This document shows, piece by piece, positions 6-20,611 of a DNA stretch of 35,538 nucleotides; position 1 is the first letter of the stretch, and each line of letters begins with the position of its first letter. This DNA is from Leptospirillum sp. (lineage in GTDB: Bacteria > Nitrospirota > Leptospirillia > Leptospirillales > Leptospirillaceae). The translations under genes were made by a program, and so were the position numbers. A model generated the notes under the pieces. That model saw nothing but the letters and a program-made list of their open reading frames with translations, did not search any database and was not told the DNA's origin. Location of the stretch: contig DAIEST010000183.1 in assembly GCA_027346125.1 (NCBI GenBank), positions 1-35,538 on the forward strand, read 5' to 3'.

Positions 6-454
6 TTTCTGAGCTGCCTACCCGGCAGTGAACGAGAAATGCAGACAAATCCGATACGAATACAATTTCTGAGCTGCCGACCCGGCAGTGAACCTGGACA
101 TACTCTTGTTCCTGTTTCTTTCTCTTTTCTGAGCTGCCTACCCGGCAGTGAACGGTTATGCCCGTCAGGCCGTTGCCAATACTTCTTTCTGAGCTGCCTA
201 CCCGGCAGTGAACCTCGGAACGGGAACGGTCTAAGGAGCGGAGATTTTCTGAGCTGCCTACCCGGCAGTGAACGACCAGATCGTTTCGCGTGGAGGGGCG
301 CAGACTTTCTGAGCTGCCTACCCGGCAGTGAACGTCCCGATCCGGTGCGACTGGTGCGATGAGAATTTCTGAGCTGCCTACCCGGCAGTGAACATCATGA
401 TTGTTTCAATGATAGAGATTGTCATTTTTCTGAGCTGCCTACCCGGCAGTGAAC
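6..454 (-). CRISPR. Type I-F CRISPR array, 8 repeats / 7 spacers visible, may continue left of the window; crRNA sense on minus strand
   Basis: 28-nt repeat TTTCTGAGCTGCCTACCCGGCAGTGAAC (crRNA sense GTTCACTGCCGGGTAGGCAGCTCAGAAA, I-F hairpin plus CTCAGAAA handle) at 6-33, 66-93 (one variant base), 126-153, 186-213, 246-273, 306-333, 366-393, 427-454; spacers 32 nt (last one 33 nt). Confidence 0.98.
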
Positions 455-583: not shown

Positions 584-1141
584 TCAGAACCAAGGAATCG
601 ATCCCCCCGCACTCAATCCATAACTGTTAAATGAGTTCGTCTGTCTTTCCTCCAGTAATGGCCCATGCTGAACAAACAAACGAAAATCGTGTCCGGAGCT
701 TTTGCTTGAAATCTGCAAATACGGGAGTTCTAGCTTTCTTGCAACACTATCGGGGATTTTCCTTTCGGCTTCTTCCGGGGTGATTCCCTGTCGTCGCTCT
801 AGCCGTCTTCGAAGCCGATCCGGACTGCTTTTTGCTTGAACCCGCAGAACCTTTCGGAACTTTGTGCCTTGAGGAACGCGATCAACTTCAGATAAATCAA
901 TGTAGTCCCGCATTCCTTTCCACCAATTGTCAGCCACAAGATTCCGCAGTGCCCCTTCCGACCCATGGATTCTCAGGCAAGATCCAAAACTTTTGCCCTT
1001 GACCTCAGGAAAACTGATCCCAACATCCCGATATCCACCCTTTACCAAGGCAAGATGGAACGCACCGAATAGGGTGTTCATTACATGGTTTGGAGAAATT
1101 TCTGGATTTTCCAGTATTTTGATATCGCAATAGTGATCCAT
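584..1141 (-). CDS. csy4: Cas6f/Csy4 crRNA endonuclease
   Basis: 185 aa; C-terminal FNSYGLSAGGSIPWF typical of Csy4; last gene of the I-F operon before the array. Confidence 0.95.
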   Translation of the reverse strand: MDHYCDIKILENPEISPNHVMNTLFGAFHLALVKGGYRDVGISFPEVKGKSFGSCLRIHGSEGALRNLVADNWWKGMRDYIDLSEVDRVPQGTKFRKVLRVQAKSSPDRLRRRLERRQGITPEEAERKIPDSVARKLELPYLQISSKSSGHDFRLFVQHGPLLEERQTNSFNSYGLSAGGSIPWF

Positions 1142-1159
1142 TTCACCCGCTCCTCATAA

Positions 1160-2188
1160 TTACTCCGATTTTTCTCCAAAAACTCCACCCCGTACAAGAA
1201 CGGCCATAACGAAATGCTGGTTCTCCTGTGTAGGTATCTTATCTTTGATGAGCCAGTTGTCGAACAGCGAGTAAAAATCAGTTTTTTCACGGGGCTGACG
1301 ATAGGCTTTCCCTTCGGAAGTTACCGAACCATAAGGCTCAACTGCGATAGGGAAAGAGGCTTCTGGATACCAGGTGTCGATCGTCCGGATAGCGTTTCCT
1401 ATTTTCTGAGAATGAATTCCGGCAATTCCGTCGATATGATAAAGCGTTTTGCTTTTTTTCCCCTGTCCCTTGTCGAGGATCAGTTCCTGGGAAGGATAGA
1501 CTTCGCCGGACCCCATCCGAACAAAGGCTTCGACTTCCAGCAAAACATGCCGGGATCCCGACAGCCCTTCTCCTATCAAAGCGGCCACCTCCCTCAACGG
1601 GTCACCAGCCTGTGAGACAGAATCGAATTGACGCAACGACAGGGACAAGGCATCGAATGTCCATGATTTTTGGGGATGACCCTCGACGATATGCCTGATC
1701 CGTATCTCGACCCGTTCCACACCGAGTCGGTTTCTCCAGAGAAATCGTCCGTTTGCCAGATTGAAGGTATAGCGGTATGCCAGCTCCGACAAACCGTGAG
1801 AGTCCATGTAGGTCTGGACAATTTCCGAGATCCTCTGTTTGTATTCCGGACTGTTGCAGGCCGAGGGGACGCCAACACCAGGCAAAACCCGGAGTGAAAA
1901 ATGAACTTTCAGCGTATCAGATCCTTCCGGAAGAGTGGCCACATCGATCGTCTGGAGATTGGGGTTTTCAATAGAAGCGTTGATTTTTAGCGGATCCTGG
2001 TTTTTTTCTCCTTTGAGCCTGTTCGAGATCGTTCCCCGAACAGACTTCTCGCGGATTCTGACAGGATCCCATCCGACATTTTTCTCCCGGCCCTCCCATC
2101 GGCCGTGGTAAAGAAGAGCGTCGGACGGATCAAGTTTGCGTTCGAAGGCGAGAACAGAAGCGGTTTCTAATTTTTCAGACATGATCAT
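1160..2188 (-). CDS. csy3: Cas7f/Csy3 backbone subunit (start 2188 or 2182)
   Basis: 342 aa, MSEKLETASVLAFERKLDPSDALLYHGRW...; AGGGAGG ribosome binding site; order consistent with I-F. Confidence 0.95.
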   Translation of the reverse strand: MIMSEKLETASVLAFERKLDPSDALLYHGRWEGREKNVGWDPVRIREKSVRGTISNRLKGEKNQDPLKINASIENPNLQTIDVATLPEGSDTLKVHFSLRVLPGVGVPSACNSPEYKQRISEIVQTYMDSHGLSELAYRYTFNLANGRFLWRNRLGVERVEIRIRHIVEGHPQKSWTFDALSLSLRQFDSVSQAGDPLREVAALIGEGLSGSRHVLLEVEAFVRMGSGEVYPSQELILDKGQGKKSKTLYHIDGIAGIHSQKIGNAIRTIDTWYPEASFPIAVEPYGSVTSEGKAYRQPREKTDFYSLFDNWLIKDKIPTQENQHFVMAVLVRGGVFGEKSE

Positions 2189-3176
2189 CCTCCCTTGTTG
2201 GTTTATAGCCGTTTACGCAACGGTAAAGGCCATGTTCTTCATCGTAGTGACCCCACCACAGAAGCTCCCTGGCATCAGACAAATGATGAGGCCCGATCCA
2301 CTCACCAATGGAATAGGCACTTTCGACAAATCGGACAGGGGTCGTACTGTCCCGGGTGTTTGCAACGGATCCTGCGGGATGGATTCCGGTGAGGGAGCCG
2401 TAACCGATGGGAATGGGAACGATCCATCTCCTCCGCTCCTTGCGGCTGGAGACCCAGGTGGCGATTTTATCCGATTCACCATCCTGTCCGTCATCCTGAA
2501 TCACCGCCCGTACATTGTTTCGGGATAAGTCAAGCCAGGCATCCAAAGGAGTAGAGTCCGCCTTTTCCTCTTTCAATTCGTCAAGACGTTCCTGCAAAAG
2601 ATCCTCGCGAGAGACCAGAGAAAATCCGGGAAGAAGACTTCGCCTGAGTTTCCTGAAGGCGAGTCTTCTTTTTTCGATATCCTCGTCCACCACCTCGAGT
2701 CGGGGTGTTCGGGAGGATCCCGGAATGACCGTTCCCCCGGCGATCCGCATTTCTTCGATCGTCCGGGAAATCCGGAGTGCCATTTTTTTTCTCTCTTCTT
2801 CAGAAACAAGGATTTCCGATGGTGCGTCGACACCCAAGATCAGGCTCATCTCAAGGCGCGCCCGTCCTTCTTCGATAATCGAATCGGTTTCTCCGTTGGA
2901 CTTGACAGGATTGCGCGTCAGAGAGAATTTTCTTGTAAAAAAATTGGTAGAGCCGACCTGTGGATCGAACCTGTGACAGACGATACCGATGGAATTGAAG
3001 GCGATCCTGAACTCCGAGTCGGCGTGAATCATCTTTCTCTCGAGGGCTCCCATCAATCCAAGAAAGGCCGTCAGAGATGGGAACCCCCATGTGAGTGGGG
3101 CAGAAATGGCGTTGGCGTTCTGAATCCGGATCCTTGGGATCACTAGAAGTGCGTTGAAATCCGGGATGTCAAGCAT
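2175..3176 (-). CDS. csy2: Cas5f/Csy2
   Basis: MLDIPDFNALLVIPRIRIQNANAISAPLTWGFPSLTAFLGLMGALERK is Csy2-like; the ORF is open to 3293, but the Csy2-like N-terminus begins at the ATG at 3176, overlapping the csy1 stop. Confidence 0.92.
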   Translation of the reverse strand: MLDIPDFNALLVIPRIRIQNANAISAPLTWGFPSLTAFLGLMGALERKMIHADSEFRIAFNSIGIVCHRFDPQVGSTNFFTRKFSLTRNPVKSNGETDSIIEEGRARLEMSLILGVDAPSEILVSEEERKKMALRISRTIEEMRIAGGTVIPGSSRTPRLEVVDEDIEKRRLAFRKLRRSLLPGFSLVSREDLLQERLDELKEEKADSTPLDAWLDLSRNNVRAVIQDDGQDGESDKIATWVSSRKERRRWIVPIPIGYGSLTGIHPAGSVANTRDSTTPVRFVESAYSIGEWIGPHHLSDARELLWWGHYDEEHGLYRCVNGYKPTREDDHV

Positions 3177-4542
3177 TGGCATTCTCCTTCTCCATCGGCG
3201 ATCCAAGGATCGAATCCCATGGCTCGCCTTCCAGCATTCCGGAAAAATAGTCATGCTCGACATCGCCCAGCAGAAGGATTTTTCCAAGCTCATGGTTCAG
3301 CCAGTTTCCAAATTTGTGACGTATTTTTTCCTTCCATTCCGGAGGAGGGGAGTTTGCCCCTTTCGGATCGAAAAGGAATTTCTCTTCGGCCGACAAACGG
3401 CACCGGGGATCGGATGACCACCCCGGGTCGAGCGAGTGAATCTTGTCCAAATACAGGACGATCTCACCGATGATCCGCTCGACGAGGTCGTCCCGTCGGA
3501 TCCTTGTTTCAAGAATCGGAGGAGGATCGGCTTCCAGAAAAGTTCGAAGGGCACGGATGAGCGGTTTCAACTCCGGACGCTTCCCGGCGTGATCAAAAAA
3601 AGTGGTCGTTCCCCAGAGAGGGGCGGCCGGACGCTCTTTCCATGAAGGAGGGAGAGATGCCAGAAGATAGTTGACTCCCCCTCGCTCACTGTTGAGTTGA
3701 CTGATGTTCAGGGGTTTTGTACCACCGATTTTTCTCATTGCGAGGTTCGTGTATTCATGGATCTCATGTTCCGAAAAACTTTTTTCCCTTCTGGCCTTCC
3801 TCGCATCCTTAGCCGCTTCTCCATAAAGATCCTCACTGATAATCTCATGAATTCTGTGAACAAGAGAGCTTTCGAACAGGGGGAGCAGAAGATGATAGTC
3901 TTCATCCTTGGCGGGATCCTTGCCGATCATCCAGTAAACCTGCTTGGCGAGCGTATGGGAGGCAAGTCCTCTGTCTGTTCTTCGCACAATTCCAGAAAAG
4001 CTCCGTGCCAACTTTTCGCCCTGACCGGGCTCGTCCGACAGAATGTGGGAGATCTCCGGCCGGCCTTCCAGGATCAAGCGCAAAAGACTTGTCCCCTCGA
4101 ACTCGAGGGATAGAAATTTGTAGACATCCAGAGCGGCGGCATTCCCAACGACATCTTTGAAGAATTGGTCTTGAAGAAGATAGGATCCAACAAATCCATG
4201 CGGGGAGAGTTCGACAGGCTCGACGTACAGGCTGGAACCTCTGGAATACTGATGAGCCGCCTTGGCGATATGTGTTGCAAATTCAAGCTGGGAAACCCTG
4301 CGCGCGGCATCGTCAATCCAGACAGACGGAGTATATTTTTCCGACAGTTCCAGCGGTATTTCTCCATCACCAGAATTTTGGGATAACTGTTCAGGATCAT
4401 CCGCCGGGACTTCCAGAATCGCTCCCGGTTCTTTTTTGCTTTTCTTCCCTTCCTGTTTTTTCCTGTTCTCAAGTCTGGCACCCAGAAATTCGGAAATGGC
4501 CTCCCTGAAGCCGGCGACAACATCCATGTTGACTTTTTCCAT
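3169..4542 (-). CDS. csy1: Cas8f/Csy1 large subunit
   Basis: ORF open to 4617, but ATG at 4542 is preceded by a strong SD (AGAAAGGAGGGGGTCTG-ATG) and begins MEKVNMDVVAGFREAISEFLGARL; position in I-F operon. Confidence 0.9.
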   Translation of the reverse strand: MEKVNMDVVAGFREAISEFLGARLENRKKQEGKKSKKEPGAILEVPADDPEQLSQNSGDGEIPLELSEKYTPSVWIDDAARRVSQLEFATHIAKAAHQYSRGSSLYVEPVELSPHGFVGSYLLQDQFFKDVVGNAAALDVYKFLSLEFEGTSLLRLILEGRPEISHILSDEPGQGEKLARSFSGIVRRTDRGLASHTLAKQVYWMIGKDPAKDEDYHLLLPLFESSLVHRIHEIISEDLYGEAAKDARKARREKSFSEHEIHEYTNLAMRKIGGTKPLNISQLNSERGGVNYLLASLPPSWKERPAAPLWGTTTFFDHAGKRPELKPLIRALRTFLEADPPPILETRIRRDDLVERIIGEIVLYLDKIHSLDPGWSSDPRCRLSAEEKFLFDPKGANSPPPEWKEKIRHKFGNWLNHELGKILLLGDVEHDYFSGMLEGEPWDSILGSPMEKENANA

Positions 4543-4597
4543 CAGACCCCCTCCTTTCTGAGGATCAGAATGAACCTCCCCGAATAAAAAATCAACC

Positions 4598-4618
4598 TTT
4601 AGGTTTTTATTTTTCATA
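4598..4618 (+). promoter_or_regulatory. Candidate protospacer-like operator of the csy1 promoter, with CC PAM at 4596-4597
   Basis: CC-TTTAGGTTTTTATTTTTCATA matches the guide-like sequence at 4683-4703 (TTTAGATTTTTATTTTTTAAC) at positions 1-5, 7-17 and 19. Confidence 0.65.
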
Positions 4619-4642
4619 CATTTAAAAAAATTTTTTGATAAG
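4608..4642 (-). promoter_or_regulatory. Candidate csy1 promoter (minus-strand -35 TTATCA, 17-bp spacer, -10 TATGAA)
   Basis: Read by eye on the reverse complement: TTATCA-aaaaatttttttaaatg-TATGAA; AT-rich, so could be fortuitous. Confidence 0.4.
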
Positions 4643-4654
4643 CTAGACCGTGCA

Positions 4655-4731
4655 TACCACTGCCGAACAGGCAGCTCAGAAATTTAGATTTTTATTTTTT
4701 AACCTTCACTGCCGGACAGGCAGACATCAGT
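4655..4731 (+). ncRNA. CreR-like crRNA-mimic / degenerate two-repeat mini-CRISPR between cas2-3 and csy1
   Basis: Repeat-like TACCACTGCCGAACAGGCAGCTCAGAAA (22/28 identical to the array repeat, intact stem CTGCC/GGCAG and handle CTCAGAAA), 21-nt guide TTTAGATTTTTATTTTTTAAC, then CTTCACTGCCGGACAGGCAGACATCAGT (stem kept, handle lost). Confidence 0.75.
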
Positions 4732-7700
4732 CATCAATATCCAGAGCGGAACTGAACCCAAGGGCGGGGTGAAATCTCCACCCGTTTTTGGATTCGGGAA
4801 GTCGAACCGTTCCGAAACGGATGGCACAGTTCCGAAGATCCATCTCAAGCTCGTCGGCCAGATTGAGGAGCAATGTCATGTAATCGGACTCACCCCAGAT
4901 TCCTATCCGGACTCCCTTGACCTTTTCGTCGGGAATCCGGTGGTTTTTGGAGCGTTCGACAGGAACTATCGCGACCTCTCCCTTGTCTTCCCGGATTTCA
5001 TGAAGGCAGTAATCTTCTTCATCACTGTCCGGCAACAGGACCAAATCACTATAGTTTCGCCCATCCTTCCGGAACCTCTGTTCTTTCTGCAATATCCCGG
5101 TCAGCATGGCCCGTGGGTATGACCACCACGAAAAGGCCCCCAATCCCGGACCTTTTTTCTCATTCCCCGATCCGCGCACCCGGGAACCTTTTGTTGCCGC
5201 TTCGGATTCGGAAGCATCGGAAGGGATCATCAACTTTCCGAGACGGGCATGTTCGAGATCGACGAGCCTAGACTCCCAGTGAAGCACCGGTCGTTCAACG
5301 ATCCTGGAGGAAGAATCGAGGACCCTCCATTCTTCCTCCAGAAGGATCTTTTTCAGGGAATGGCTTTCAAGGGTAAAGTCCGCACTTTCAAATCCCGGCC
5401 TCCAGTAGGCGGGATTCTTGCCCTCAAGAGAATTGATATTTCTTTCGAATATCGCGACATTGGGAGATCCAACTTCTTTCTTCCGATGGCGGAGGACGCG
5501 TCCGGCAAGCTGGATCAGAGACCGCATCGAGGAGGGTTCAACCACGGCCCAGTCGTAATCGTGATCCCGCCCGACCTCCGTCACGGGGGAGCCAAGCACG
5601 ATAAAAAGATGATCCGTTTCCGGAAAAACATCTAGATCACGGCGAACATCGGTATCCCGGAAAACCTGCCGGGGATCCTTGCGGCGGAGAACCTTGTCGA
5701 GACGGTGTTCGATGGATGAGCGGACAAGAAGCGGAAGCTGTGAATGATAGACGCATAGGTGAATGCGATACCCCTCCGGAATCCCCAGCTTAAAAAGTGC
5801 GAGAGCCACATCGACAAGGGGATTGATATTTGCCATTCGCACGAGGCCAAAACTGACTCGCTTTCCGCTGTCCGGATCGACCTCGTGGTGGTTTTTATGG
5901 AGATCGAGGGCCGTGGCGAGTGCCTTCTCGGCAAAGATCTCCCGTACGTTTCCCCCCTTTCCGTTAGGTATAGCGATATCGATAAGTGCTCCCCGTCTCA
6001 AAATGGCCTGTTGTGAAAGCTTTTCCTTCCGCTTTTCCGAAAATTTCCGATGGATCTCCACAAAATCGCTTCGATCCCTACACTCTTTTTCGAGCACCCC
6101 GAATTCGTCGACCCACAGGCAACAGATGTCGGGCATTTCTTCGGGATGTTCCCCCCTGTTTTTCTGGTAATGCCGGCGTCCTTCCCTGTAGGATTCGAAC
6201 ATCCCCGAAACCAGGGCGGGAGGCAGGGTGGCGGAGGAAAGCAAAACCCGGCACCCCAGGAGACCCGCCCAATGCACAAGACGGGAAATCGCCGGAAGAT
6301 CGGAGATGTCGTAGTCGTCGAGTTCGTCCAGTACAAGATCTCCGCTCAAAAGACGCAGGACCGGGGCGATCTGGTGGCCACCACGGGTTCCTTCCGTTGC
6401 CGGAACGAGATGGTCGATCGTGCAAACCAGCATGGGGGCAGACAAAAGGTCCTTCACCCTGGAATCGTCCAGAAGCCGGTCGAGTATCGGGTTTGCTTCC
6501 GGATTTCCCTCGTAAAAAACATGGCTGCCCTCCTCGATCAGGGATTCGGCGGAGGCCGATCCGGACCTTTCGGCCTCTCGCCCATATAGATCCAGAAGCT
6601 CCATGGTGGCCGCCCCGCCGATGCGGATCGCGACCTCGTCCTCTCCCAGTTCGAGTCGCTCCCGATATTCCGTTCCCGTCTGCCGTGTCAGCGTCCGCAA
6701 TCCCAGGGCAAAGGAGCAACGCATCCCGTGCTCAGGATCGTTCAGGGCATACATCATGCGAGCATTGGCCAGTGTCTTCCCGCACCCCGTGGAGGCCATA
6801 TTCACGATAAAGGCCCCTTGGAGCGCGGAACGATGACAGATGCCTTCAGCGTGATCGGCAGCCCGGTTCTGCCAGCGGAATTGCTCGTCGGGGCTTCTTT
6901 TCCTGAGACCCCTGTGGCGGGCCAGTCTGGAGAGGTCCGAAGAAACCATCGGAAGAGCCCGGACGATTTTTCCGACCAGCGACTCGACTCCCAGAAGATG
7001 TTCGTCCAGCGGTTGGTTGAGTTTTCCCGTTTTCCGATCCGTATTGGCAAAGACCTTCCATCCGCTTTTTACAGGCAACCGTGTTTCTGGGGAAATCCTT
7101 CCCGAATAGTCATGGTCAGCCAGCATCAGGCAGAGCCGGGACAGATGCATGACAAAGGGATCCTCGAGCATTTCTTTCGGATCGATCATCGGCAGGCGGA
7201 AAAGGAGCCTGTTGGCCAGCTTCGCGATCCTTTTCCTCCAGTCCGGCCTGTCGAAAGGTGTTCCATTGGGAAACGTCCAGTAGTGCTCGGGAGAGTCATT
7301 CACTTCGGTCTTCTGGTTCCATGTGGCGAGAATATTTTCAGGAACACTCTGTAAAAACTCCGTCCGGAATGAGTCATCCGGATACACGGGGAGACGATGG
7401 TGGGAGACGATCAGCCAGCCTATGATCTGGGCAAGAGGCGGAAGCTTTTTGAAGGGAGGAGTCGTCTCTCCAAGCCCATCTCTTTGAAGGCGCTCCAAAA
7501 GTCCCATGGACCTTTCTTCCGGATCCGAAAGGCGGGAAAGCCACCCATGATCATTGTCGTCTCCTACATAAGACTGTAAAAGTCTCAGGGAAACCCATTC
7601 GTGGCGATAAAGGTTTCCCAATGGAGATTTGGATTTCAAGAGGTTCTGAAACGCTCTGGAGGATTTTCCCAGATCATGGAGAAGAGCTGCCAGGGAAGTC

Positions 7701-8044
7701 AAAAGCGAGATGTTCTGAAGTGTGTGCCAATCGTTTTCGTCTTTTTCCCGAAGGATGTCCCGTGAAGTCGAATCGGTGGGAGCCGCCCCGCGCATGTTGA
7801 ACTGTCCCGAATCCCCCACAATCCATAATAGTTCGCTGTGATCGGCTCCCCGGATCCAGTGGCAGGCGACGGCCGTATTTTTGCGGGCGGTTTTTCCAAG
7901 CAGACGGCGAAGGGTATCGAGACCGTTCTTCGTCATCGCGGTCTGCCAAGTTCGTTCACCCCGGCGTTCCGCATACTGGTCCAAGATCCGTCGGCTTTCG
8001 GAGAGAGCCCTCCCTGAACATTGGGACACAAACAGGACGTTCAC
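4727..8044 (-). CDS. cas3: Cas2-Cas3 fusion (I-F nuclease-helicase)
   Basis: N-terminal Cas2-like NVLFVSQCSGRALSESRRILDQYAERRGERTW, HD motif LLHDLGKSSRAFQ, helicase motifs (NMASTGCGKTLANARMMY, DELDDYD); GTG start at 8044 overlaps the cas1 stop (GTGA). Confidence 0.95.
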   Translation of the reverse strand: MNVLFVSQCSGRALSESRRILDQYAERRGERTWQTAMTKNGLDTLRRLLGKTARKNTAVACHWIRGADHSELLWIVGDSGQFNMRGAAPTDSTSRDILREKDENDWHTLQNISLLTSLAALLHDLGKSSRAFQNLLKSKSPLGNLYRHEWVSLRLLQSYVGDDNDHGWLSRLSDPEERSMGLLERLQRDGLGETTPPFKKLPPLAQIIGWLIVSHHRLPVYPDDSFRTEFLQSVPENILATWNQKTEVNDSPEHYWTFPNGTPFDRPDWRKRIAKLANRLLFRLPMIDPKEMLEDPFVMHLSRLCLMLADHDYSGRISPETRLPVKSGWKVFANTDRKTGKLNQPLDEHLLGVESLVGKIVRALPMVSSDLSRLARHRGLRKRSPDEQFRWQNRAADHAEGICHRSALQGAFIVNMASTGCGKTLANARMMYALNDPEHGMRCSFALGLRTLTRQTGTEYRERLELGEDEVAIRIGGAATMELLDLYGREAERSGSASAESLIEEGSHVFYEGNPEANPILDRLLDDSRVKDLLSAPMLVCTIDHLVPATEGTRGGHQIAPVLRLLSGDLVLDELDDYDISDLPAISRLVHWAGLLGCRVLLSSATLPPALVSGMFESYREGRRHYQKNRGEHPEEMPDICCLWVDEFGVLEKECRDRSDFVEIHRKFSEKRKEKLSQQAILRRGALIDIAIPNGKGGNVREIFAEKALATALDLHKNHHEVDPDSGKRVSFGLVRMANINPLVDVALALFKLGIPEGYRIHLCVYHSQLPLLVRSSIEHRLDKVLRRKDPRQVFRDTDVRRDLDVFPETDHLFIVLGSPVTEVGRDHDYDWAVVEPSSMRSLIQLAGRVLRHRKKEVGSPNVAIFERNINSLEGKNPAYWRPGFESADFTLESHSLKKILLEEEWRVLDSSSRIVERPVLHWESRLVDLEHARLGKLMIPSDASESEAATKGSRVRGSGNEKKGPGLGAFSWWSYPRAMLTGILQKEQRFRKDGRNYSDLVLLPDSDEEDYCLHEIREDKGEVAIVPVERSKNHRIPDEKVKGVRIGIWGESDYMTLLLNLADELEMDLRNCAIRFGTVRLPESKNGWRFHPALGFSSALDIDD

Positions 8045-9048
8045 GTCTCTCTCCCAGAGAATTTGACGGCGACGGACTTGATCGTGTCGATCATGAAATC
8101 GAGCGATTCGGAACGGGTCAATGCCTCGATGCATGCCTGTCGGAATTCCTGCTCCCCATCTCCTCTCATAGCAGAAATAAATGCCTGCGGGAGGATGACC
8201 GCATCCTTGACCAGGTCAGCGACATCGAAAACAAGACCTCCCCGTCTTGTTTTCCCATGCAAGACGGAAAGGCCATGGGGAATCCCCAGTACCCAAGTCG
8301 CCGTTGCCCCGAGACCGTAGGCAAGGTAATTTCCATGGTCAAGGAATCGATTGGCTGAATCCGTTCCACTTCCCCTTTTGGCTCTCGTAAACTCACCGTA
8401 ATCCACGGCCCGGGCCGCAATCCGGAACAGCTCCTTTGTCAGCCGGGCTTCCTCGGTCAGGAGGGAAACATTGTCCGGGGCCTCCTCAACAGCCTTCATG
8501 GAGGTTTCAACCAGCAGACCGAGATGACCGGAGTCACCCTCGAACTCCGCCTCTCTCAGAGGACGGCTCGTCGTCCATGTGTTCCTGAGGCGCTCCAGCC
8601 GTGCCTTCTGAAACTCTTTTGCGGCGGAAAGCCTTTCTCCCTCGTCAAACCAGAGCCCGACCCAGGACTGAAGGTATTCGGTAGGGCGGTATTCGCTCTG
8701 GGGACTGAACCAGACCACCTCCACATCGGCTTCATTGGCAGCAAACAGGGGCGTGCCACCCCCTCCGCAAAAACCGACCAGCACGCCGGCCCGTGCCAGT
8801 TCCCTCATGGCCGCCTGTGTTACGGACGTCCCCGTTCCGAGAAGAATGTTCGTGGTGTTGGCGATGGGGATGTTCCAGTAGAGTGATCGCTTCCCGCGGT
8901 CGGTCACATACTCGACCCTTCCCCCATTGACGAGAACTCGACAATGCTCCAGATAGTAAATATTGGCTCTTTTGGAATGCAGGATAGTCTTGAGTGAAGA
9001 GCTGGCGATCGCTTCCATATCTTTCTGCCTCCTGATGGAGTGGATCAA
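8041..9048 (-). CDS. cas1: Cas1 integrase (I-F)
   Basis: 335 aa; LKTILHSKRANIYYLEHCRVLVNGGRVEYVTDRGKRSLYWNIPIANTTNILLGTGTSVTQAAMRELARAGVLVGFCGGGGTPL is typical I-F Cas1. Confidence 0.95.
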   Translation of the reverse strand: MIHSIRRQKDMEAIASSSLKTILHSKRANIYYLEHCRVLVNGGRVEYVTDRGKRSLYWNIPIANTTNILLGTGTSVTQAAMRELARAGVLVGFCGGGGTPLFAANEADVEVVWFSPQSEYRPTEYLQSWVGLWFDEGERLSAAKEFQKARLERLRNTWTTSRPLREAEFEGDSGHLGLLVETSMKAVEEAPDNVSLLTEEARLTKELFRIAARAVDYGEFTRAKRGSGTDSANRFLDHGNYLAYGLGATATWVLGIPHGLSVLHGKTRRGGLVFDVADLVKDAVILPQAFISAMRGDGEQEFRQACIEALTRSESLDFMIDTIKSVAVKFSGRET

Positions 9049-10772: not shown

Positions 10773-11843
10773 TCAATCCGCATGCCCCGAAAGGCGGTTG
10801 GAAAACAACGACTCAAGAAACTGTACATTGGTGGTCAAGACGATAGGCGCATCCCAGTTCTGAGAGAGCAGGCGGCGTTGACGGTCAGTTACATTTTCCG
10901 CGTCACCTCTCGCCGCCTCCTCACCAAGACCAGCCAAACTATGATGCTCCAGAACAAAGTTGTCTGGAAAACCCGTAAATACACTTCTGTATACTCTCGC
11001 CGTTTGGTCAATGATGGAGAGAAAAGGCATGACAACTATGATCCGACACAACTTATGCCGGGCGGCATGTTCCAGGGCAAACTTGAGCATAGCCAATGTT
11101 TTTCCGGAACCAGTCGGCGCGGTGAAGGTAAATGTCCCGGTTTCGCTCTGCGAGGCTTTGATCGCATCTTGCCAAAGCATCTCCCTTGCTAAGCGCACTC
11201 TCCCCTCAGTCTGATTTTTGTTCCGGATATTGAGCATGTACGAATCAAGTGCAGTCAAAGCAGCATCCGTATCGAGGTCTGATCCGTTGGGACGATAGCG
11301 TTTTCCGTTTGCGTTGCCCTCGAAATGTGCCTCGGTGTCGACAAAGTCAGCATCCGAAAGGCAGGAAAACAAGAGTCGGACATCGAGCATCGCGGCAACG
11401 GGGTATCTCATACCGTCCTTTAACGAAAGCGCTGTGCGTTCTGGAGTCTCAAATGCCAAGCCGTCCATTTCGGCCAGATGTTTAAGGTGCAGTGGGTCAG
11501 GATCGCTCAGTTCGAGACGGAAAGGATGGTTCTGGATAAGCATCTTGGGATCTATGCCTCGCAAAAATTCTACTGATGCACCTTGCAATCCGACATGATG
11601 TCCCTGGATTGCCAAAGCGGCGGCTACTGTGTGTGTTTCCGTCAGAGCAATCCAAGCACCCTGCGACCAGTGGTCGAGGCCGGAGTCCATGCCATGGAGC
11701 CTGTCCTGGAAACGGGTACCATACTTGCCTAAATCGTGTAACAGACCGGCTAATGCTGCTTCATTAGACCACGATGCTTTCCCGGCAAACTGCTTTGCGA
11801 GTCGACCTACACACTCTTCAGGTGATCGGCAAGCAGATGCCAT
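10773..11843 (-). pseudogene. Truncated Cas3 (HD domain plus N-terminal helicase part) of a second CRISPR-Cas system
   Basis: HD motif AGLLHDLGKYGTRFQDRL, GHH, Walker A FTAPTGSGKTLAMLKFALEHA, VVMPFLSIIDQTARVYR, then TTNVQFLESLFSNR and an abrupt stop before the DEAD-box and helicase C-terminal part. Confidence 0.8.
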
Positions 11844-12563: not shown

Positions 12564-13463
12564 TCAGGGGGATGTCCGGGCGATTTCCTGGAGAATTCGT
12601 TCGATTATTCGAATCTCGGTGGGGTAGGTCCACAAGACACAAAGGAGTTCCCCGAAATGGGTGGACTCGATCTTCTCCTGAAAAGAATAGGCCGCGACCG
12701 CACGGGCCGCCATCAGCACTTTTTTCCATCTGCGGTCGGAGATCCAGACTCCTTCCTGGAAAAACCGCTCCCTCAGGTGCAGGATGGCTTCGAGACCGCT
12801 TTTACCCAGTCCGATCCTGTTCCGGATACTGTCTTCGCTTTCCTTGAACCGTTCCGGGGGAATCCCGTTTCCGGAATCGGGAGAAACGATCTCCGACCGG
12901 TCCGTTCCCATGGACAGAAACCGCTGGAAGTTTTCGGAGCCGGAGATCGGCCTCACGATCGACCGGAAGGTGAACCGGTCATAGAACGCATCCAGTCCGT
13001 CGGCAGGAGACGGGTTCTGGTTGCTGGCGCCGAAAAGGGTCAAAAGAGGAATCCTTCGGGTGTCCGGGAGATAGGCAATCCGTTCGTTCAGGATGGGGAG
13101 CAGTCCCAGAAGGGTCTCCTTCGGAGCCCTGAAGACTTCGTCCAGAAAGACGACGTGGGCGCCGGGGATCTGATCTTCTCCCATGAGGGAGCGGAATGCC
13201 GTTTCTCCGGTCATCGATGTTTCATGGTAGCGGGCTCCCTCCAATCGCCGGACCAGAGAACGGATCAGAAGACTCTTGGCGGTACCCGGGGCTCCGATCT
13301 GATAGACATGTTCGTTGATCAGGAGGGCCAGGAGTGCGGAACGGACCACTTCCTTTCGCTCCAGGAAGGCGTCGTTCAACTCTTCCTCGATCGCCCGGCA
13401 CCTCTCGATGAGGTCGAAGAGCGCATCGAGAGGCATGGAGGACTCGCCGGTTCCGGAAATCAT
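12564..13463 (-). CDS. MoxR/RavA-family AAA+ ATPase encoded at the end of the T4SS operon
   Basis: QIGAPGTAKSLLIRSLVRRL (Walker A), VVFLDEVFRAPKETLLGLLPILNER (Walker B), FGASNQNP; ATGA overlap with the virB10-like gene. Confidence 0.88.
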   Translation of the reverse strand: MISGTGESSMPLDALFDLIERCRAIEEELNDAFLERKEVVRSALLALLINEHVYQIGAPGTAKSLLIRSLVRRLEGARYHETSMTGETAFRSLMGEDQIPGAHVVFLDEVFRAPKETLLGLLPILNERIAYLPDTRRIPLLTLFGASNQNPSPADGLDAFYDRFTFRSIVRPISGSENFQRFLSMGTDRSEIVSPDSGNGIPPERFKESEDSIRNRIGLGKSGLEAILHLRERFFQEGVWISDRRWKKVLMAARAVAAYSFQEKIESTHFGELLCVLWTYPTEIRIIERILQEIARTSP

Positions 13464-14413
13464 GGTTTGCGGGATGCGGCCGGCAAGGGAAATCCCTGGA
13501 GGACCACGACATCGACGGGGGTTCCCCGTTCGAGCCGGTATGTGGACTGTCGGGTCTGGATCGGCATATTGTTCTGCGTTTCGTAGAGCACGTTCCCGGC
13601 TTCCTGCATGGCAAGGGCGTTTCCGATACTCGCGTTTCCCATCCATCCTGCGCTTCCGATGGCTTCGCCGCCCAACATCAGGGAGTCTCTGCCGACAGAG
13701 CTTCCCATGTTGCCGGCGTAGTGGCGGGCCAGACGCACCGGAACGCCTTCCCTGCCCTCCGCCATGGCGTATCCGGACATGGATGCCTCAAGCGCATTGC
13801 CGAACAGGACCCGGACGAACCGGATCCTGAGACGCCCGTCTCCGCCGAGGGTTTCCGGGTACCCGAGAATTTCGATGGTCCGGCCCAGTCTCAGGCGTCC
13901 CACCGACTGTGGAGGGACCGACACAAAAACAGGCGCGCTGCTGCCGGGCCCGTCGGCCTCCCGCAGGACCGTTCCCCGAAGAATGCTTCCGGCCGGAATG
14001 GTCCGGCCGGGAGCCGGAGGAGTGTCCTGTCGCGCCGCCAGAACCGGAGGCAGTGCGTCGGGGTGGCCCCGGAAAATGGTCTGCACCAGTGAAAGGAGGG
14101 GATTGCCCGGACCGGGTGCGGCCGGACCGGAAGGAGCCCCTATATAGACGGTGCTCTGGGTGTTGAGATCGTGAGGGCTATCCTGACCGCGACCGACAGG
14201 GATCTTCTCTCCGGACCCCGTCCGTCCGGACAGGGTTTGCCATGAGGGTTTTATGGACCATTCCGGAGGCTGGCTGCCGGGAAGACTTTGCCAGTTCTCG
14301 GCCCCGCTTTCGAGGTTTTTCCCTCCGGAACCGGGAAGCGTCCGGGGATGGAGCGCCGAATACAGAAAAAGGCCCACGCCCACAAGTCCCAGAATGAAGC
14401 CCCAGCGTCCCAT
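13460..14413 (-). CDS. VirB10/TrbI-like T4SS protein
   Basis: N-terminal TM, Pro-rich linker, IPAGSILRGTVL and C-terminal LERGTPVDVVVLQGF pattern; directly after virB9-like gene. Confidence 0.8.
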   Translation of the reverse strand: MGRWGFILGLVGVGLFLYSALHPRTLPGSGGKNLESGAENWQSLPGSQPPEWSIKPSWQTLSGRTGSGEKIPVGRGQDSPHDLNTQSTVYIGAPSGPAAPGPGNPLLSLVQTIFRGHPDALPPVLAARQDTPPAPGRTIPAGSILRGTVLREADGPGSSAPVFVSVPPQSVGRLRLGRTIEILGYPETLGGDGRLRIRFVRVLFGNALEASMSGYAMAEGREGVPVRLARHYAGNMGSSVGRDSLMLGGEAIGSAGWMGNASIGNALAMQEAGNVLYETQNNMPIQTRQSTYRLERGTPVDVVVLQGFPLPAASRKP

Positions 14414-15525
14414 CAGTGCCCCCCTGCCCCGGAGTCCCGGCTCAGGACGATTTCCGGGCCACCCCGGTAATGTCCGGAAAGATCGACCTGTATCCCTTCG
14501 TGGCTGCCCACCCGAGGGATCGATTCCACGGGGATCAGGAACCGGGCTCTCCCCCCGGCGGGCATCTCTTCCTGGAATCCCCTCTCCCAGTCCGACTGGC
14601 TGTCGTATTTCTTTTCCCCCTCCCACAGGAGTGCCGTCCGGAACAGCCGGATCCGGATTCGGGTCACCCGGAACGGATGGGTCCCCCGATCGATGGCCTC
14701 GAGCAGTCCGAACGTGTGATGCGACGATTGCGAGAAACCCAGGAAGGTAAAGACAATGCCCGACTCTTCCCCATGGATCGGGAACGGGACGGTAGGCCCC
14801 GCTTCGGAGAGGGATTTCTCGCGGTTGGATTCGATTTCCCGGTCTGCCTTTTCTTCGATCGTTTTTTTCAGATCCGTCCGGATGGGGTTCAGGTTGACGA
14901 CCGTTTCCGCCCGGGGCGACCTGAAGGTGATCAGATCGTCCTCCCGTCCTGCCGGGGCCATGAGGATCCTGAAGGTCAGGCGCTTGTGCAGGGTATAGAT
15001 GATCATGTTGGTCCGTGCCTCCGGATCGTAGGTGATCGGCTTGACCTTCACGCGGGATCCGAAGACTTCCGCCAGAAAAAGCTTCGAATCCCCCATATAG
15101 ACTTCTTTGGCCTCCTCGGGCAGATCGATCAGGGAGACATGGGAAACGGCGGTCCGAAGGGTGTAGATGCGGTCCGGATCGTATGTCCGGGTCTGAATGC
15201 CGCGACGATGGCGATGCTCCGGAAAGGCGTGAAGTGGAAGAGGTTTCTTGAGCATCACGATATTGTCCGTACGGGGGTCCCCTTCCGACGCGGTCTCAGG
15301 AGGAAGCGCAGGATCTTTCCTGGGGGCGACAGGTGCCGTTGGCGCCGGAAGGGGAGCGGGTGCCGGGGGAAGCGGGTCCAGCCCGGGAGCGGCGGGGATC
15401 GCCACAACCTGGGGTGCGGCGGTTTCCGTCTGGCGCGAAGACGGGCGGGCATCCATATAAAGGAAGACCGGTAGCAGGACGATTGTCAGGCTCAGGACGA
15501 ATCCCGCGAGAAATCCTTTTTTCAT
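14413..15525 (-). CDS. VirB9/TrbG-like T4SS protein
   Basis: TYDPDRIYTLRTAVSHVSLIDLPEEAKEVYMGDSKLF ... TNMIIYTLHKRLTFRIL typical of VirB9/CagX. Confidence 0.85.
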   Translation of the reverse strand: MKKGFLAGFVLSLTIVLLPVFLYMDARPSSRQTETAAPQVVAIPAAPGLDPLPPAPAPLPAPTAPVAPRKDPALPPETASEGDPRTDNIVMLKKPLPLHAFPEHRHRRGIQTRTYDPDRIYTLRTAVSHVSLIDLPEEAKEVYMGDSKLFLAEVFGSRVKVKPITYDPEARTNMIIYTLHKRLTFRILMAPAGREDDLITFRSPRAETVVNLNPIRTDLKKTIEEKADREIESNREKSLSEAGPTVPFPIHGEESGIVFTFLGFSQSSHHTFGLLEAIDRGTHPFRVTRIRIRLFRTALLWEGEKKYDSQSDWERGFQEEMPAGGRARFLIPVESIPRVGSHEGIQVDLSGHYRGGPEIVLSRDSGAGGH

Positions 15526-16208
15526 GGTTTTTTTCCTTCTGCTGTCGTCCGGTCGATCAGATGTTCCGCATAGGACGAGACCCACAGCCCATAGGGATTC
15601 GTTCCGGTCGCTTCCCCTTCCCGGACGACCATGCGGGATTTCAGGATGTCGTCGCGTTTCCGGGAGGGATCATCATAGGAGTGCACGTGCCGGACGCTGA
15701 CGACCACGATCGAGTAGATGCCGCTCGAAATCTCGTGGATTTGACTTTCTTTGACCTCAAGCCGGCTCCGGATCCGGGAAGACACGATCTTCGAAACGAA
15801 CTGGCTGTCGGAAAAAGCCTTCTGGAGATGATTCCTGAGGTCCGGGGTCATCATCCGGAAGGCCCGCGAAAGCCGGTAGGTTTCCTGAAACGAGTCGTAT
15901 TGGGTGAAGTTCCGCATAAAATCATGGACGAAGGCCGACAGGATCAATCGGAACCGGGCCTGTTCGTCCTCCCTGGACAAAGGGGCCAGTGCGATCATCT
16001 GGCCGTTCCGGGCGATTCCGACAACGAGGGGTTCCCGGGGAGAGAGTCGCCAGAGAAGCCCGAGAGCCAGGAGGAACAGGATGGCGGTCGCCCAATAGGC
16101 GCGCTGGTGCCAGACCAGTCTGGCCTCGAGTTCCAGAAGGCGATCCGTCCCGGAGGGAGGTCGGGGGATTTCTCGTTCGCCCTCTTCTTTCATGAATGGA
16201 AAAATCAT
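15522..16208 (-). CDS. VirB8/TrbF-like T4SS protein
   Basis: Single N-terminal TM and periplasmic NTF2-like region; position upstream of virB9. Confidence 0.7.
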   Translation of the reverse strand: MIFPFMKEEGEREIPRPPSGTDRLLELEARLVWHQRAYWATAILFLLALGLLWRLSPREPLVVGIARNGQMIALAPLSREDEQARFRLILSAFVHDFMRNFTQYDSFQETYRLSRAFRMMTPDLRNHLQKAFSDSQFVSKIVSSRIRSRLEVKESQIHEISSGIYSIVVVSVRHVHSYDDPSRKRDDILKSRMVVREGEATGTNPYGLWVSSYAEHLIDRTTAEGKKP

Positions 16209-17470
16209 GGGGTCTCCTCGTTCGGGACAGATGTCTCTGGCGTTTTCCGGGTTTTACGCGCTTTGGCCACCGGTTTTTCGGAAGCGGACCCCTCTGGAGA
16301 CACCGTTTTTCGGGGCGAACGCTTCCGGACCGGAGCGTCGGTTGCCGTCCGGGCGGGGGAGGATTTTTTCGGGACGGTTTTTCGGGTGCGCGAAGAGGCG
16401 GGAGGGGTTGCGGTCTCTTCGGCGGCTGCCCGGGATCCGGTCTTGCGGCCGGACCTTGTCTTCCTGGCTTCTTCTTTTTCTTTCGGTTTCCGTTTCCAGA
16501 CGAGGGATGTCATGCTGTAGGGTCCGATCCTGAGCTGTCTTTTCCGATAGACCCTTTTCCCCTGCCCCAGATCTTTCGTGACGCTTCCGACCTTGAATTC
16601 TCCCAGTCCCAGGGGCAGTTCTCCGGTGGTCACCGGACGGAGCACTCCTTCGGAGAAGATCCTTTTTCCGAGAAGGACCGCCTGGGGTCCGGCGAAAGAT
16701 CCGACCCCTTCGTAGGACCGGTCCAGAAGAAGATGTGTCAGGACCGGTACCATCAGGAACATCAGGACCAGGATCAGCATGATGCCGAGAGAGAGGGTCT
16801 GGTTTTCGAAAACCGATCCGAAGCCTCCGGGATTCAGGGCCTGGACGAGATTCACGGCGGTGAAGATTCCGACGAACAGGTTGTGGATGACCACCCATAG
16901 CATGATCTCGAGCGCGTTGCGACCCCACTGGACGATCATGAAGAACATGCCCGGGATGATCGCCATCGCGCACAGGAGCGGCCCGATCGCATAGAGGAAG
17001 GCCAGCAGAGCGTACCGGAGAAGGGTGAACAGGAAGATCAGCACCTTCAGGAAATCCATCAGGAGGAGGTAGATCATTCCCATCGGATCGGTCAGGACGC
17101 TGAAAAAGGATCCGGAGGAACCGGGGACCAACGGGGCGTTCCAGATGGATTCATAGAAAAGGAGGACCATCCGGCCCGGGTAGATGGCGTTGGCGATGGC
17201 TCCCACCAGAAGGGACAGATCCTGGAAGAAAGCGCCATATCCGACGAGAAGGATGAAGACTGCGACAATGCGGAGAAGGTCCGGGAAGACGGATTTCTGA
17301 TCCCGCATCTTTCCCCACAGGAACAGGATTGCGATCGGAAGCGTGATCATCATCAGAATCCGGGCCACCGACAGCACCTGGTTCTGGATCGGAGACATGA
17401 CGCAGGGAATGGTATAGGAATCCTGGAAAAGGAGTGTCCCAAAACGACCGTTCGGGTCCGCACAGTTCAT
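16205..17470 (-). CDS. VirB6/TrbL-like polytopic T4SS membrane protein
   Basis: Many TM segments followed by a basic C-terminal tail; operon position. Confidence 0.75.
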   Translation of the reverse strand: MNCADPNGRFGTLLFQDSYTIPCVMSPIQNQVLSVARILMMITLPIAILFLWGKMRDQKSVFPDLLRIVAVFILLVGYGAFFQDLSLLVGAIANAIYPGRMVLLFYESIWNAPLVPGSSGSFFSVLTDPMGMIYLLLMDFLKVLIFLFTLLRYALLAFLYAIGPLLCAMAIIPGMFFMIVQWGRNALEIMLWVVIHNLFVGIFTAVNLVQALNPGGFGSVFENQTLSLGIMLILVLMFLMVPVLTHLLLDRSYEGVGSFAGPQAVLLGKRIFSEGVLRPVTTGELPLGLGEFKVGSVTKDLGQGKRVYRKRQLRIGPYSMTSLVWKRKPKEKEEARKTRSGRKTGSRAAAEETATPPASSRTRKTVPKKSSPARTATDAPVRKRSPRKTVSPEGSASEKPVAKARKTRKTPETSVPNEETP

Positions 17471-17477
17471 CGATGGC

Positions 17478-18104
17478 TTACCGGAACATGATCCACTGGG
17501 GAATCTCCATCCGGACCCGTTCCTGGTCGAGCTGCGTCCGTTGGTGGGACTGATTGATGACCCGCCCTTCGAGTCCGATCGAGGAGGACTGCTCCTTCAG
17601 GAGGTACAGGAGGTCTTTGTGGATGGAGAGGAGCATCTGGTAGATGTGCCCCTGGGTATCGGCTCCGAGCCGGAGCGCCCCCTGGGGGCTGGCCTGGTAG
17701 GCCATCTGGTGGATCCCCGCGCCGATCGCCTCTTCTCCCGGTGCCTGGGCGATGCCTCCCAGGGCCTCGCCCATCCCTTCATGAGCGGATCGGGTCAACT
17801 CCGACACGCCGGGGACGGGGCCGCCCGGAGAGGGCGCCGGCCTCAGGGGTTCGGCCGGCAGAACCGGCAATCCGTAAAAATCCACCCCCTGGTTCTTTTC
17901 GGCAAAGAAATTCTTCAGCCGCTGGATATTCTGGAGCGTTCTGGTTTCGACCCAGAGGATCCGTCCTTCCATCATGTTTCCGAGACCTCCGATGGCCTGG
18001 GCCCGTTCCGGAAGAACGACAAGAAGGAGGAGGATCGAACCGGCCGCAAGAGAGAACATGCCCGGAAGATGTGGAAAGAGCTTTCGATCGCGGCCGTTCG
18101 TCAA
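17478..18104 (-). CDS. VirB5/TrbJ-like T4SS protein
   Basis: Signal-peptide-like N-terminus and NQSHQRTQLDQERVR; candidate TTG start overlapping the virB4 stop (TTGA), alternative ATG at 18059. Confidence 0.6.
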   Translation of the reverse strand: MTNGRDRKLFPHLPGMFSLAAGSILLLLVVLPERAQAIGGLGNMMEGRILWVETRTLQNIQRLKNFFAEKNQGVDFYGLPVLPAEPLRPAPSPGGPVPGVSELTRSAHEGMGEALGGIAQAPGEEAIGAGIHQMAYQASPQGALRLGADTQGHIYQMLLSIHKDLLYLLKEQSSSIGLEGRVINQSHQRTQLDQERVRMEIPQWIMFR

Positions 18105-20611
18105 AGCGGTCCTTCCTTCGCGAGGGCGGCCAGCGCTTCGTCCAGCGTGCCCGTTGTCCGCAACGCTTCCTGAAACCGGGCATCTTCTTCGGGAGAGCGG
18201 GCGGATATCCAGAAGGCCAGGGGAGACGGCTCCAGTCTCAGCAGACGGCTTTCCATCCCCATCTTGAGCAGTCCTTCCGAGAACTTCCCTTTCTCGGAAA
18301 CAAGCGTCTGCGCCAGTTCCTGCTCCCGCTGGTGAAACCCCAGCTCCGCGAGCCGGCCGTGGCCGTTCTGGAGGGGAAAGATCCATTTCCAGAAGGTATT
18401 GTTCACAAGCCCTGCGGACAGGTCTTCTTCCAGAAAGTCTCCCGGGGACTGGCTGATCGCGATGACCCCTCCCCCGAATTTCCTGACGGTCCGGTAGAGG
18501 TGGGTCAGGAACTCGGTGCCCCGGAGTTCGTGCAGGATCCGGTGCGCCTCGTCGAAGACGAGGAAAAGCCGTCTTCCCGGACCCTCTTCTTTCAGGCGGT
18601 AAAGCGCCAGGCTGGCGATGAAGGAAAAGACGATCCCCTTGAGCGCGGCGTGGCTGTCCAGTGCGGAAAGATCGAAGGCGATCAGCCGTTCCCCCCTCTC
18701 CAGTCCGCGGGGATTGTTCAGGAGGGAGCCGTAAATCCCCGTGGCCCAGGATTCCAGGAGTTTTCCCATGGCATAGGAGAGCGTTTCGTCTTCCCGGTCC
18801 CGTCCCCGGTACTGCAAGAGTTCCTGCGCCAGAAGAGACAGCATGGGTCTGGCATCCGGTCCCGGAAGCCGGTCGTAGACGGTTTCCAGGCAGGACATCA
18901 GGATTTTGCGGTGAATCGCTCCGACTGCCATGCCGGGAACCAGGAATGTCTCGAGGACACCCCCCAGAACCCCCAGGAGATCCGGGTCGTAGACGCGGGG
19001 AGGTCCCGGAGCGACTTCCAGTTCCTTCCTTGCGGGGAAGGGGTTCAGGGAAAAGCGGCCCGACAGGTCTATCTTGAGATACTCTCCTTCGAAGAAGGCA
19101 CTGAACCGCTCGAAGTCCCCTCCGTTTTCCACGACGATGGCGTGATGGGAGGCGGATTCGCAGAGGAATTGGCCCAGCAGGAGCTTGGCTCCGAACGACT
19201 TTCCGCTTCCGGACTGTCCCAGGATCAGGCCATTGTGGTTCGAGTGGCGATCGCTCCAGAAATCCAGTCCGACCGGTTCATCCAGATGGTTCTTGGCCCA
19301 GAACCAGGGGGTTTCATGGTCGGGGGGCTTGTCCCAGATGGGGAGGAAGTGGGGAAGCTTGCCGGAAAGGAGAATCTCCCACCGGTCGTTCGAATCCCCC
19401 TGGAGCGGGAGTCCCGACAGGAAAAGCGGCCACTGCCGGTAGGGCTCATGGGCCATGATGGACCCCATGGCTTCGGAAAATCCCCTGAGAATCTCCTTTC
19501 CCATTTCCGGGAGATCGTCGGGATCCGGGGACCAGTAGGCGACCGAAAGGTTCAGGAGGAAAGGGATTCTCTCTTCCTCCTGCGTTTCGTGGGCGCTTTC
19601 GAGAAACTCTTCCTGCTGGCGGGTTTCCGAGGCCAGGCGGTAGGACTTTCCCGGAAGAAGGAGCGACAGGAACCTGTTGACCGTCATCTGGCTCTGGACC
19701 GATTTCAGCGTCTGTTCCCGCTCGGGTTTCCAGAGATTCATGACAAGATCGTGGCTGAAGTCGATTCCATGAAGGATCGGGGCCAGCGTTTCCCGGTCCA
19801 GTTCGGCGGGAAGGACGCGGAGGGCATGAATGCGGCCGTATTGCACGGTTCCGTCCGGGCCGAAGGCTTTGAGACCCGCCGGAGATTCGAGAAACGCCGT
19901 CTGGGCCAGACGCTCTCCGAAAGACTGCCCTTGCCGGAAGCGCTCCTCCTGAAACGGGATCGGATCGGTCGGAGAGGCGGGGTTCAGGATCCGGTACAGA
20001 TATTCATGCAGTTCCGGCCCTTCAAGCGGACTTCCGAGCATTGCGCATCCCGGCAGAAGCGTTTCGACCAGGGCCCCGATCTCCAGAAGCCGGCGAATCC
20101 GTTTTTGATGGCGTTCCATGGAAAAGCGGGAAGCGGATCTCCCGGGAATCCGGAGGGGAAACAGGGACGGACGGATGCGACGCTGTTCGGCGTCGGTGTG
20201 GGAAACGACCGCGAGAAACAGATCCCTGGTTCTCGCGAGCCGATGGCTCATGTCTTCCCACCGGTCATTGCGGTACCATGCGCTCCGCTCCGGCCCGGAT
20301 GTCTCCCGGAGAATATCGCCCTGAAACCAGTCGGGCATCCTGAGATCCCCTTCTTTCGGGATTCCGACCCGGGTCCGGATCCGGAACTGGAGACTCATTC
20401 CCTCAGGGAGGTGGCCCAAGAGCGACTGGATTCCCCGGTGGATCTGAAGGACTTCGGATTCCGACTTCGCGAAAAGATCCGCTCCCGACAACCGGAATAT
20501 GCGCGCGTAGCGCCCCCTGGCTCCGTACAGGATCCCGTCTTCTTCTCCGATCAGATCGAAATAGCGGGAAACCGGAGGGGAGGGAGGTCTTTTTCCGAGA
20601 GGAGAGATCAT
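18101..20611 (-). CDS. VirB4/TraC-family T4SS ATPase
   Basis: 836 aa, Walker A ILGQSGSGKSFGAKLLLGQF, Walker B LFLVFDEAHRIL, GGGVIAISQSPGDFL. Confidence 0.93.
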   Translation of the reverse strand: MISPLGKRPPSPPVSRYFDLIGEEDGILYGARGRYARIFRLSGADLFAKSESEVLQIHRGIQSLLGHLPEGMSLQFRIRTRVGIPKEGDLRMPDWFQGDILRETSGPERSAWYRNDRWEDMSHRLARTRDLFLAVVSHTDAEQRRIRPSLFPLRIPGRSASRFSMERHQKRIRRLLEIGALVETLLPGCAMLGSPLEGPELHEYLYRILNPASPTDPIPFQEERFRQGQSFGERLAQTAFLESPAGLKAFGPDGTVQYGRIHALRVLPAELDRETLAPILHGIDFSHDLVMNLWKPEREQTLKSVQSQMTVNRFLSLLLPGKSYRLASETRQQEEFLESAHETQEEERIPFLLNLSVAYWSPDPDDLPEMGKEILRGFSEAMGSIMAHEPYRQWPLFLSGLPLQGDSNDRWEILLSGKLPHFLPIWDKPPDHETPWFWAKNHLDEPVGLDFWSDRHSNHNGLILGQSGSGKSFGAKLLLGQFLCESASHHAIVVENGGDFERFSAFFEGEYLKIDLSGRFSLNPFPARKELEVAPGPPRVYDPDLLGVLGGVLETFLVPGMAVGAIHRKILMSCLETVYDRLPGPDARPMLSLLAQELLQYRGRDREDETLSYAMGKLLESWATGIYGSLLNNPRGLERGERLIAFDLSALDSHAALKGIVFSFIASLALYRLKEEGPGRRLFLVFDEAHRILHELRGTEFLTHLYRTVRKFGGGVIAISQSPGDFLEEDLSAGLVNNTFWKWIFPLQNGHGRLAELGFHQREQELAQTLVSEKGKFSEGLLKMGMESRLLRLEPSPLAFWISARSPEEDARFQEALRTTGTLDEALAALAKEGPL

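Follow-up and report, generated by a model that had tools for sequence, protein, structure and literature searches.

Does a type I-F CRISPR-Cas locus carry its own brake? The window analysed here, a stretch of DNA of 35,538 nt, holds a full I-F cas operon on the minus strand (cas1, cas2/3, csy1, csy2, csy3 and csy4, with the array next to it; Table 1), and the 184-bp gap between the stop codon of cas2/3 (4727) and the likely start of csy1 (4542) is home to a small crRNA-like unit on the plus strand. A first-pass annotation had read this unit as a CreR-like crRNA mimic with the csy1 promoter as its target, and the covariation that we describe across 32 related loci strongly supports that claim. 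We propose, with a probability of about 0.93, that positions 4655-4723 encode a CreR-like regulatory RNA through which a short Csy complex would repress csy1-csy4 in a homeostatic manner.

A degenerate two-repeat mini-array lies between cas2/3 and csy1

The repeat of the adjacent I-F array has the sequence GTTCACTGCCGGGTAGGCAGCTCAGAAA. Repeat 1 of the unit (TACCACTGCCGAACAGGCAGCTCAGAAA) differs from it at 6/28 positions and keeps the handle CTCAGAAA intact, in agreement with the earlier description of a degenerate repeat at 4655-4682 ending in an I-F 5' handle. Its hairpin is present in the MFE fold, and its score against Rfam CRISPR-DR4 is 31.8 bits, under the 35-bit cut-off. The earlier delineation of repeat 1 and the guide holds; a second degenerate repeat at 4704-4723 had not been singled out, and with its hairpin the unit becomes a mini-array of two repeats around a 21-nt spacer. 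The stop codon of cas2/3 follows 3 bp past the second hairpin. The unit thus combines repeat-like elements outside the array, two hairpins and an intact CTCAGAAA, as in I-F regulatory mini-arrays and CreR, and it is encoded on the strand opposite to the array and to every cas gene. A promoter-terminator consensus scan of the cas2/3-csy1 gap returned no match at its cut-off.

The likely start codon of csy1 is the ATG at 4542, behind AGGAGGGGG; a start at 4617, which would give a longer open reading frame, was considered and rejected as less likely. Six further repeats of the kind found in the array, the last of them a variant (CTGCCGCATAGGCAG), are present on another contig (C226), and because the array in the window meets the contig end it is probably split across contigs.

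Table 1. Coordinates of the I-F locus and its mini-array in the window
Feature	Position	Strand	Remarks
I-F CRISPR array	6..454	-	8 repeats in window; runs to contig end
csy4/cas6f	584-1141	-	TIGR02563
csy3	1160-2188	-	TIGR02566
csy2	2175-3293	-	TIGR02565
csy1 (cas8f)	3169..4542	-	TIGR02564; start from sequence; gene of the putatively targeted promoter
Predicted csy1 promoter	4567..4595	-	-35 TTGATT (4595-4590), 17 nt, -10 CATTCT (4572-4567)
Target	4596..4618	+	PAM CC 4596-4597; protospacer from 4598; guide positions 1-5, 7-17 and 19 match
Degenerate repeat 1	4655..4682	+	hairpin 4660-4674; 5' handle CTCAGAAA at 4675-4682
Guide (21-nt spacer)	4683..4703	+	TTTAGATTTTTATTTTTTAAC; in handle register
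Degenerate repeat 2	4704..4723	+	CTTCACTGCCGGACAGGCAG; hairpin 4709-4723; predicted 3' handle of processed RNA
cas2/3 (cas3f)	4727..8134	-	TIGR02562
cas1f	8041..9048	-	TIGR03637

The guide matches a PAM-flanked site beside the predicted csy1 promoter

Just upstream of csy1, the guide meets a CC-flanked match at 4598-4614. When the guide is aligned in the handle register with CC-TTTAGGTTTTTATTTTTCAT at 4596-4617, mismatches within the first 20 positions fall at 6, 18 and 20, and this alignment agrees with the pairing read in the first pass (matches at 1-5, 7-17 and 19, mismatches at 6 and 18). We scored this single case as the number of matches over 17 of the first 20 guide positions, with the sixth positions omitted, and the window's own guide and target reach 16/17. 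No dinucleotide shuffle of the 115-bp intergenic region (0/20,000) and no shuffle of its AT-rich block alone (0/20,000) reached 16, and 26/20,000 shuffles of the T-rich, low-complexity guide did so (0.0013). The window has 6,488 CC sites, of which the runner-up scores 12, and the csy1-proximal site is the sole full match to the guide in the genome, which is 87% complete. A shuffled-sequence test had been named at the outset as something that could weaken the reading: the intergenic shuffles favour it, and the 0.13% of guide shuffles that reach the score weaken it slightly on account of T-richness. This dents the single case a little, and the family evidence presented below removes the doubt.

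The predicted csy1 promoter (Table 1) is the best-scoring cas-strand promoter within 80 bp of the PAM; it is weak by consensus, and a consensus promoter scan did not recover it at its cut-off. In cas-strand orientation the PAM reads GG and directly precedes TTGATT-17-CATTCT, which sets the target right on the upstream side of the predicted -35 box. The PAM-flanked partial match adjoins the predicted -35 box of a cas promoter in its own locus. The earlier assignment of the csy1 promoter as the target is retained in this corrected form, with the -10 box uncovered; a placement of the target over the -10 box was dropped because the csy1 promoter scan sets the -35 box right after the PAM. In 12/22 loci the distance on the cas strand from the PAM to the best -35 box is 0-2 nt, and PAM-adjacent promoters include those of L027 (TTGACA-17-TACACT) and L043 (TTGACA-17-TAAGAT). 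The L033 PAM overlaps the last part of the -35 box, and the L033 target lies over the core promoter of csy1, in the -35/-10 spacer.

Guide and target covary among related I-F loci

A Cas2/3-based scan of genome contigs yielded 80 related I-F loci (47-56% identity), mainly from Beta- and Gammaproteobacteria and some Desulfo- lineages. We searched their cas2/3-csy1 gaps for a hairpin plus handle and found mini-arrays in 32/80: 25 in the first search, 5 with an insert between cas2/3 and the unit, and 2 under relaxed criteria (L045 and L082). The hairpin-plus-handle search found no mini-array in the other 48/80 retrieved loci, where some contigs end near the site. The Cas3f relatives from the host's own phylum (L084-L086) are distant, and no convincing mini-array was found in them. 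A candidate in L053 was discarded as a chance hit, its target being 552 bp off and its handle poor. Among viral contigs no Cas3f relative was found, and two Csy3 relatives were present.

Nearly every guide among the related mini-arrays matches a CC-flanked site upstream of its own csy1, and guides from different lineages mostly share just 4-8/17 bases. Of 29 guides, one from the window and 28 from non-redundant related loci, 27 reach 13/15 or more at their own csy1-proximal CC site. The maximum for array spacers (n = 1,048) against their own cas2/3-csy1 region is 12/15, with none at 13, and after exchange of guides and regions between loci a score of 13 is reached in only 6/2,262 combinations. 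The choice of site does not depend on how the sixth positions are treated, as a selection on total matches that ignores the sixths returned the same site in 24/24 pairs. Drift of the guide independent of its target had been named as an observation that would speak against regulation; across the 32 loci we find that guide and target co-vary and that pairing is kept, with only the sixth positions drifting freely.

Two loci from Desulfo- lineages, L019 and L033, differ from the window and the other loci in carrying the mini-array on the csy1 strand, upstream of the target (at ~11461-11560 and ~5150-5330, respectively). Csy1 identity was confirmed in the window and in both of these loci.

Mismatches concentrate on the sixth positions and pairing ends near position 17

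Across the 29 pairs, mismatch frequency is 0 at positions 1-5, 0.79 at 6 and 0.03 at 7; it is 0.21, 0.10, 0.21, 0, 0.83 and 0 at positions 8 to 13, 0.10-0.17 at 14-16, 0.34 at 17 and 0.83 at 18, and pairing is lost beyond. Positions 6 and 12 together account for 47 mismatches in 58 comparisons; the remaining 15 positions together have 37/435 (Fisher p = 6e-32). With mismatches at ~80%, close to the 75% that bases under no constraint would give, the sixth positions look free and not under selection for mismatch. Position 6 most often has A in the target (18/24 pairs) and G in the guide (15/24). The mismatch profile agrees with the genetics of the CreA guide, where the essential positions are 1-5 and 7-11, with 6 and 12 dispensable (PMC8501985). 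Together, the PAM and the drift at sixth positions are signatures of Cascade.

Spacers in the family range from 14 to 38 nt, mostly 18-28 nt, and pairing stops near position 17 even in the longer ones. In a studied I-F1 system the number of Cas7f subunits obeys L = 6N - 4. Complexes there that carry a 20-nt spacer bind their target DNA but fail to trigger Cas2/3, and truncated R-loops escape cutting (PMC7296934). The 21-nt spacer in the window fits four Csy3 subunits.

The 29 pairs can be regarded as nature's own mutagenesis of target recognition by Cascade, in which pairing at positions 1-5, 7, 11 and 13 is almost invariant, the sixths are free and pairing fades beyond position 17. A CC-flanked match in the same locus combined with mismatches at sixth positions offers a simple sequence test for regulators of this kind.

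Proposed mechanism and alternative explanations

The mechanism that we infer from this anatomy, pairing and covariation would begin with transcription of the unit, creR, from the plus strand at 4655-4723. Cas6f cleaves 3' of each hairpin, and in the mini-array Csy4 would by extension cut after each degenerate hairpin to yield an RNA of ~49 nt composed of the handle, the 21-nt guide and a 3' hairpin. The predicted mature RNA (4675-4723) would have the 5' end CUCAGAAAUUUAGAUUUUU and the handle-guide junction CUCAGAAA-UUUAGAUUUUU. Once loaded in a short Csy complex with about four Csy3 subunits, it would place that complex on 4598-4614, beside the csy1 -35 box, through an R-loop of ~17 bp with the sixth positions unpaired. 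The bound complex would block RNA polymerase and so repress csy1-csy4, of which the csy2-csy3-csy4 block (584..3293, minus strand) forms the remaining part expected to be under this control. We predict that so short an R-loop would fail to trigger Cas2/3, and the chromosome would accordingly be bound and left uncut (from PMC7296934). By analogy with published CreR systems, consumption of Csy subunits by competing array crRNAs or by anti-CRISPRs would derepress csy1-csy4. We expect the unit to behave as a built-in thermostat that holds the immune complex low until needed, and we predict that Csy production in this host would increase in response to phage anti-CRISPRs.

We considered whether the unit could instead be the remnant of a decayed CRISPR array whose T-rich match to the csy1 region is fortuitous. 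The degeneracy of the repeats, the T-rich guide and the 0.13% of shuffled guides that reach the observed score are compatible with such decay, but 32 other loci carry such a mini-array together with a matching guide of their own, none of the 1,048 array spacers scores 13/15 at its own cas2/3-csy1 region, and mismatches concentrate on the sixth positions. Since the covariation of guide and target already contradicts it, we consider a decayed remnant scarcely credible. It is also very unlikely that the RNA, instead of directing Csy to DNA, acts as an antisense transcript by pairing with the leader of the csy1 mRNA. The RNA from the window is indeed complementary to cas-strand DNA upstream of csy1, but the PAM and the sixth-position drift point to Cascade, and a target upstream of the predicted -35 box should be absent from the csy1 mRNA. 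In L019 and L033, moreover, the unit is on the csy1 strand and its match runs in the sense direction, which makes pairing with the mRNA impossible there and excludes antisense action as a general mechanism.

The third possibility accepts a Csy-RNA complex at this site and proposes that it activates or only fine-tunes csy1, or that it mainly controls the divergent creR transcript. The position of the target, upstream of the csy1 -35 box and off the core promoter, could accommodate this, as could the partial overlap of the candidate creR promoters with the target. The search for a creR promoter settled on no consistent or confident candidate. The published Cascade and CreR cases repress, however (PMC13131331, PMC12737573), and in L033 the target sits over the csy1 -35/-10 spacer. 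We regard this third possibility as improbable and favour repression of csy1-csy4 by the short Csy complex.

Relation to known crRNA-like regulators

Shmakov et al. (Nucleic Acids Res 2023, doi 10.1093/nar/gkad495) reportedly described mini-arrays partially complementary to cas promoters, notably that of cas8, with one I-F1 case tested experimentally. Those I-F1 mini-arrays are said there to have two repeat-like sequences around a spacer that partly matches the cas8 (csy1) promoter, as the present unit does; the present host differs in belonging to a phylum that seldom carries I-F. As I-F1 mini-arrays directed at the cas8 promoter were thus reportedly described in 2023, the type of regulator is already known and the locus is a new instance of it. 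The first-pass annotation had called the concept known in other type I systems, which the CreR papers bear out and which should be widened to I-F1 on the strength of that reported 2023 work. PMC10651486 cites Shmakov et al. for Cas-dependent transcriptional repression.

CreR autorepression is stated for I-B, I-E and V-A (PMC13131331), and CreR is stated for type I and V-A (PMC12737573). Like these, the present unit would supply a crRNA-like RNA with partial complementarity to a cas promoter, loaded by the system's own effector; unlike the CreR of I-B, I-E and V-A, it belongs to subtype I-F. With CreTA and CrePA (PMC8501985, PMC9458426, PMC12737573) it shares a degenerate two-repeat unit, a seed at positions 1-5 and 7-11, free sixth positions and the use of Cascade as a transcriptional repressor, the last being a proposal here. 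In those systems the guide represses an adjacent toxin gene, whereas the target in the window precedes csy1 and no toxin gene adjoins the unit; with the second hairpin ending at 4723 and the cas2/3 stop codon at 4727, there is no space for one. Racr RNA anti-CRISPRs (PMC10651486) are likewise repeat mimics, and they bind Cas6f and Cas7f. They are, however, single repeats in phages, whereas the present unit has two repeats inside a cas operon and a guide that matches a promoter, and so is not a solitary phage or prophage repeat that lacks a targeting guide.

Inserts between the cas2/3 stop codon and the mini-array, on the strand of the mini-array, occur in several relatives. They encode a nucleotidyltransferase with HepT in L009 and L054, a nucleotidyltransferase alone in L018, MqsR with MqsA (supported by Pfam) in L031, a helix-turn-helix (HTH) protein resembling HigA in L065, and small open reading frames without Pfam matches in L076. 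The toxin-antitoxin-like character of such inserts suggests an addiction of the CreTA/CrePA kind tied to csy1 control. We put forward only tentatively the broader idea that diverse I-F1 systems share a fixed architecture (a PAM abutting the csy1 -35 box, pairing over ~17 positions, sixths saturated by drift, and a short spacer by which binding is uncoupled from cleavage by Cas2/3) and that in several lineages a single site would set both the level of Cascade and addiction through the inserted toxin-antitoxin pair.

The locus is a well-supported case of RNA-guided autoregulation in a host phylum that rarely has I-F, Cas3f being found in 7/396 of its genomes. Near the cas locus (12564-20611 in the window) are a MoxR-type AAA ATPase gene and conjugation-type genes, the latter comprising a weak VirB9/CagX-like match at 14413-15585 and a VirB4/TraG-like ATPase at 18101-20611. 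Given these conjugation-type neighbours and the rarity of Cas3f in the phylum, the I-F locus may have arrived on a conjugative element.
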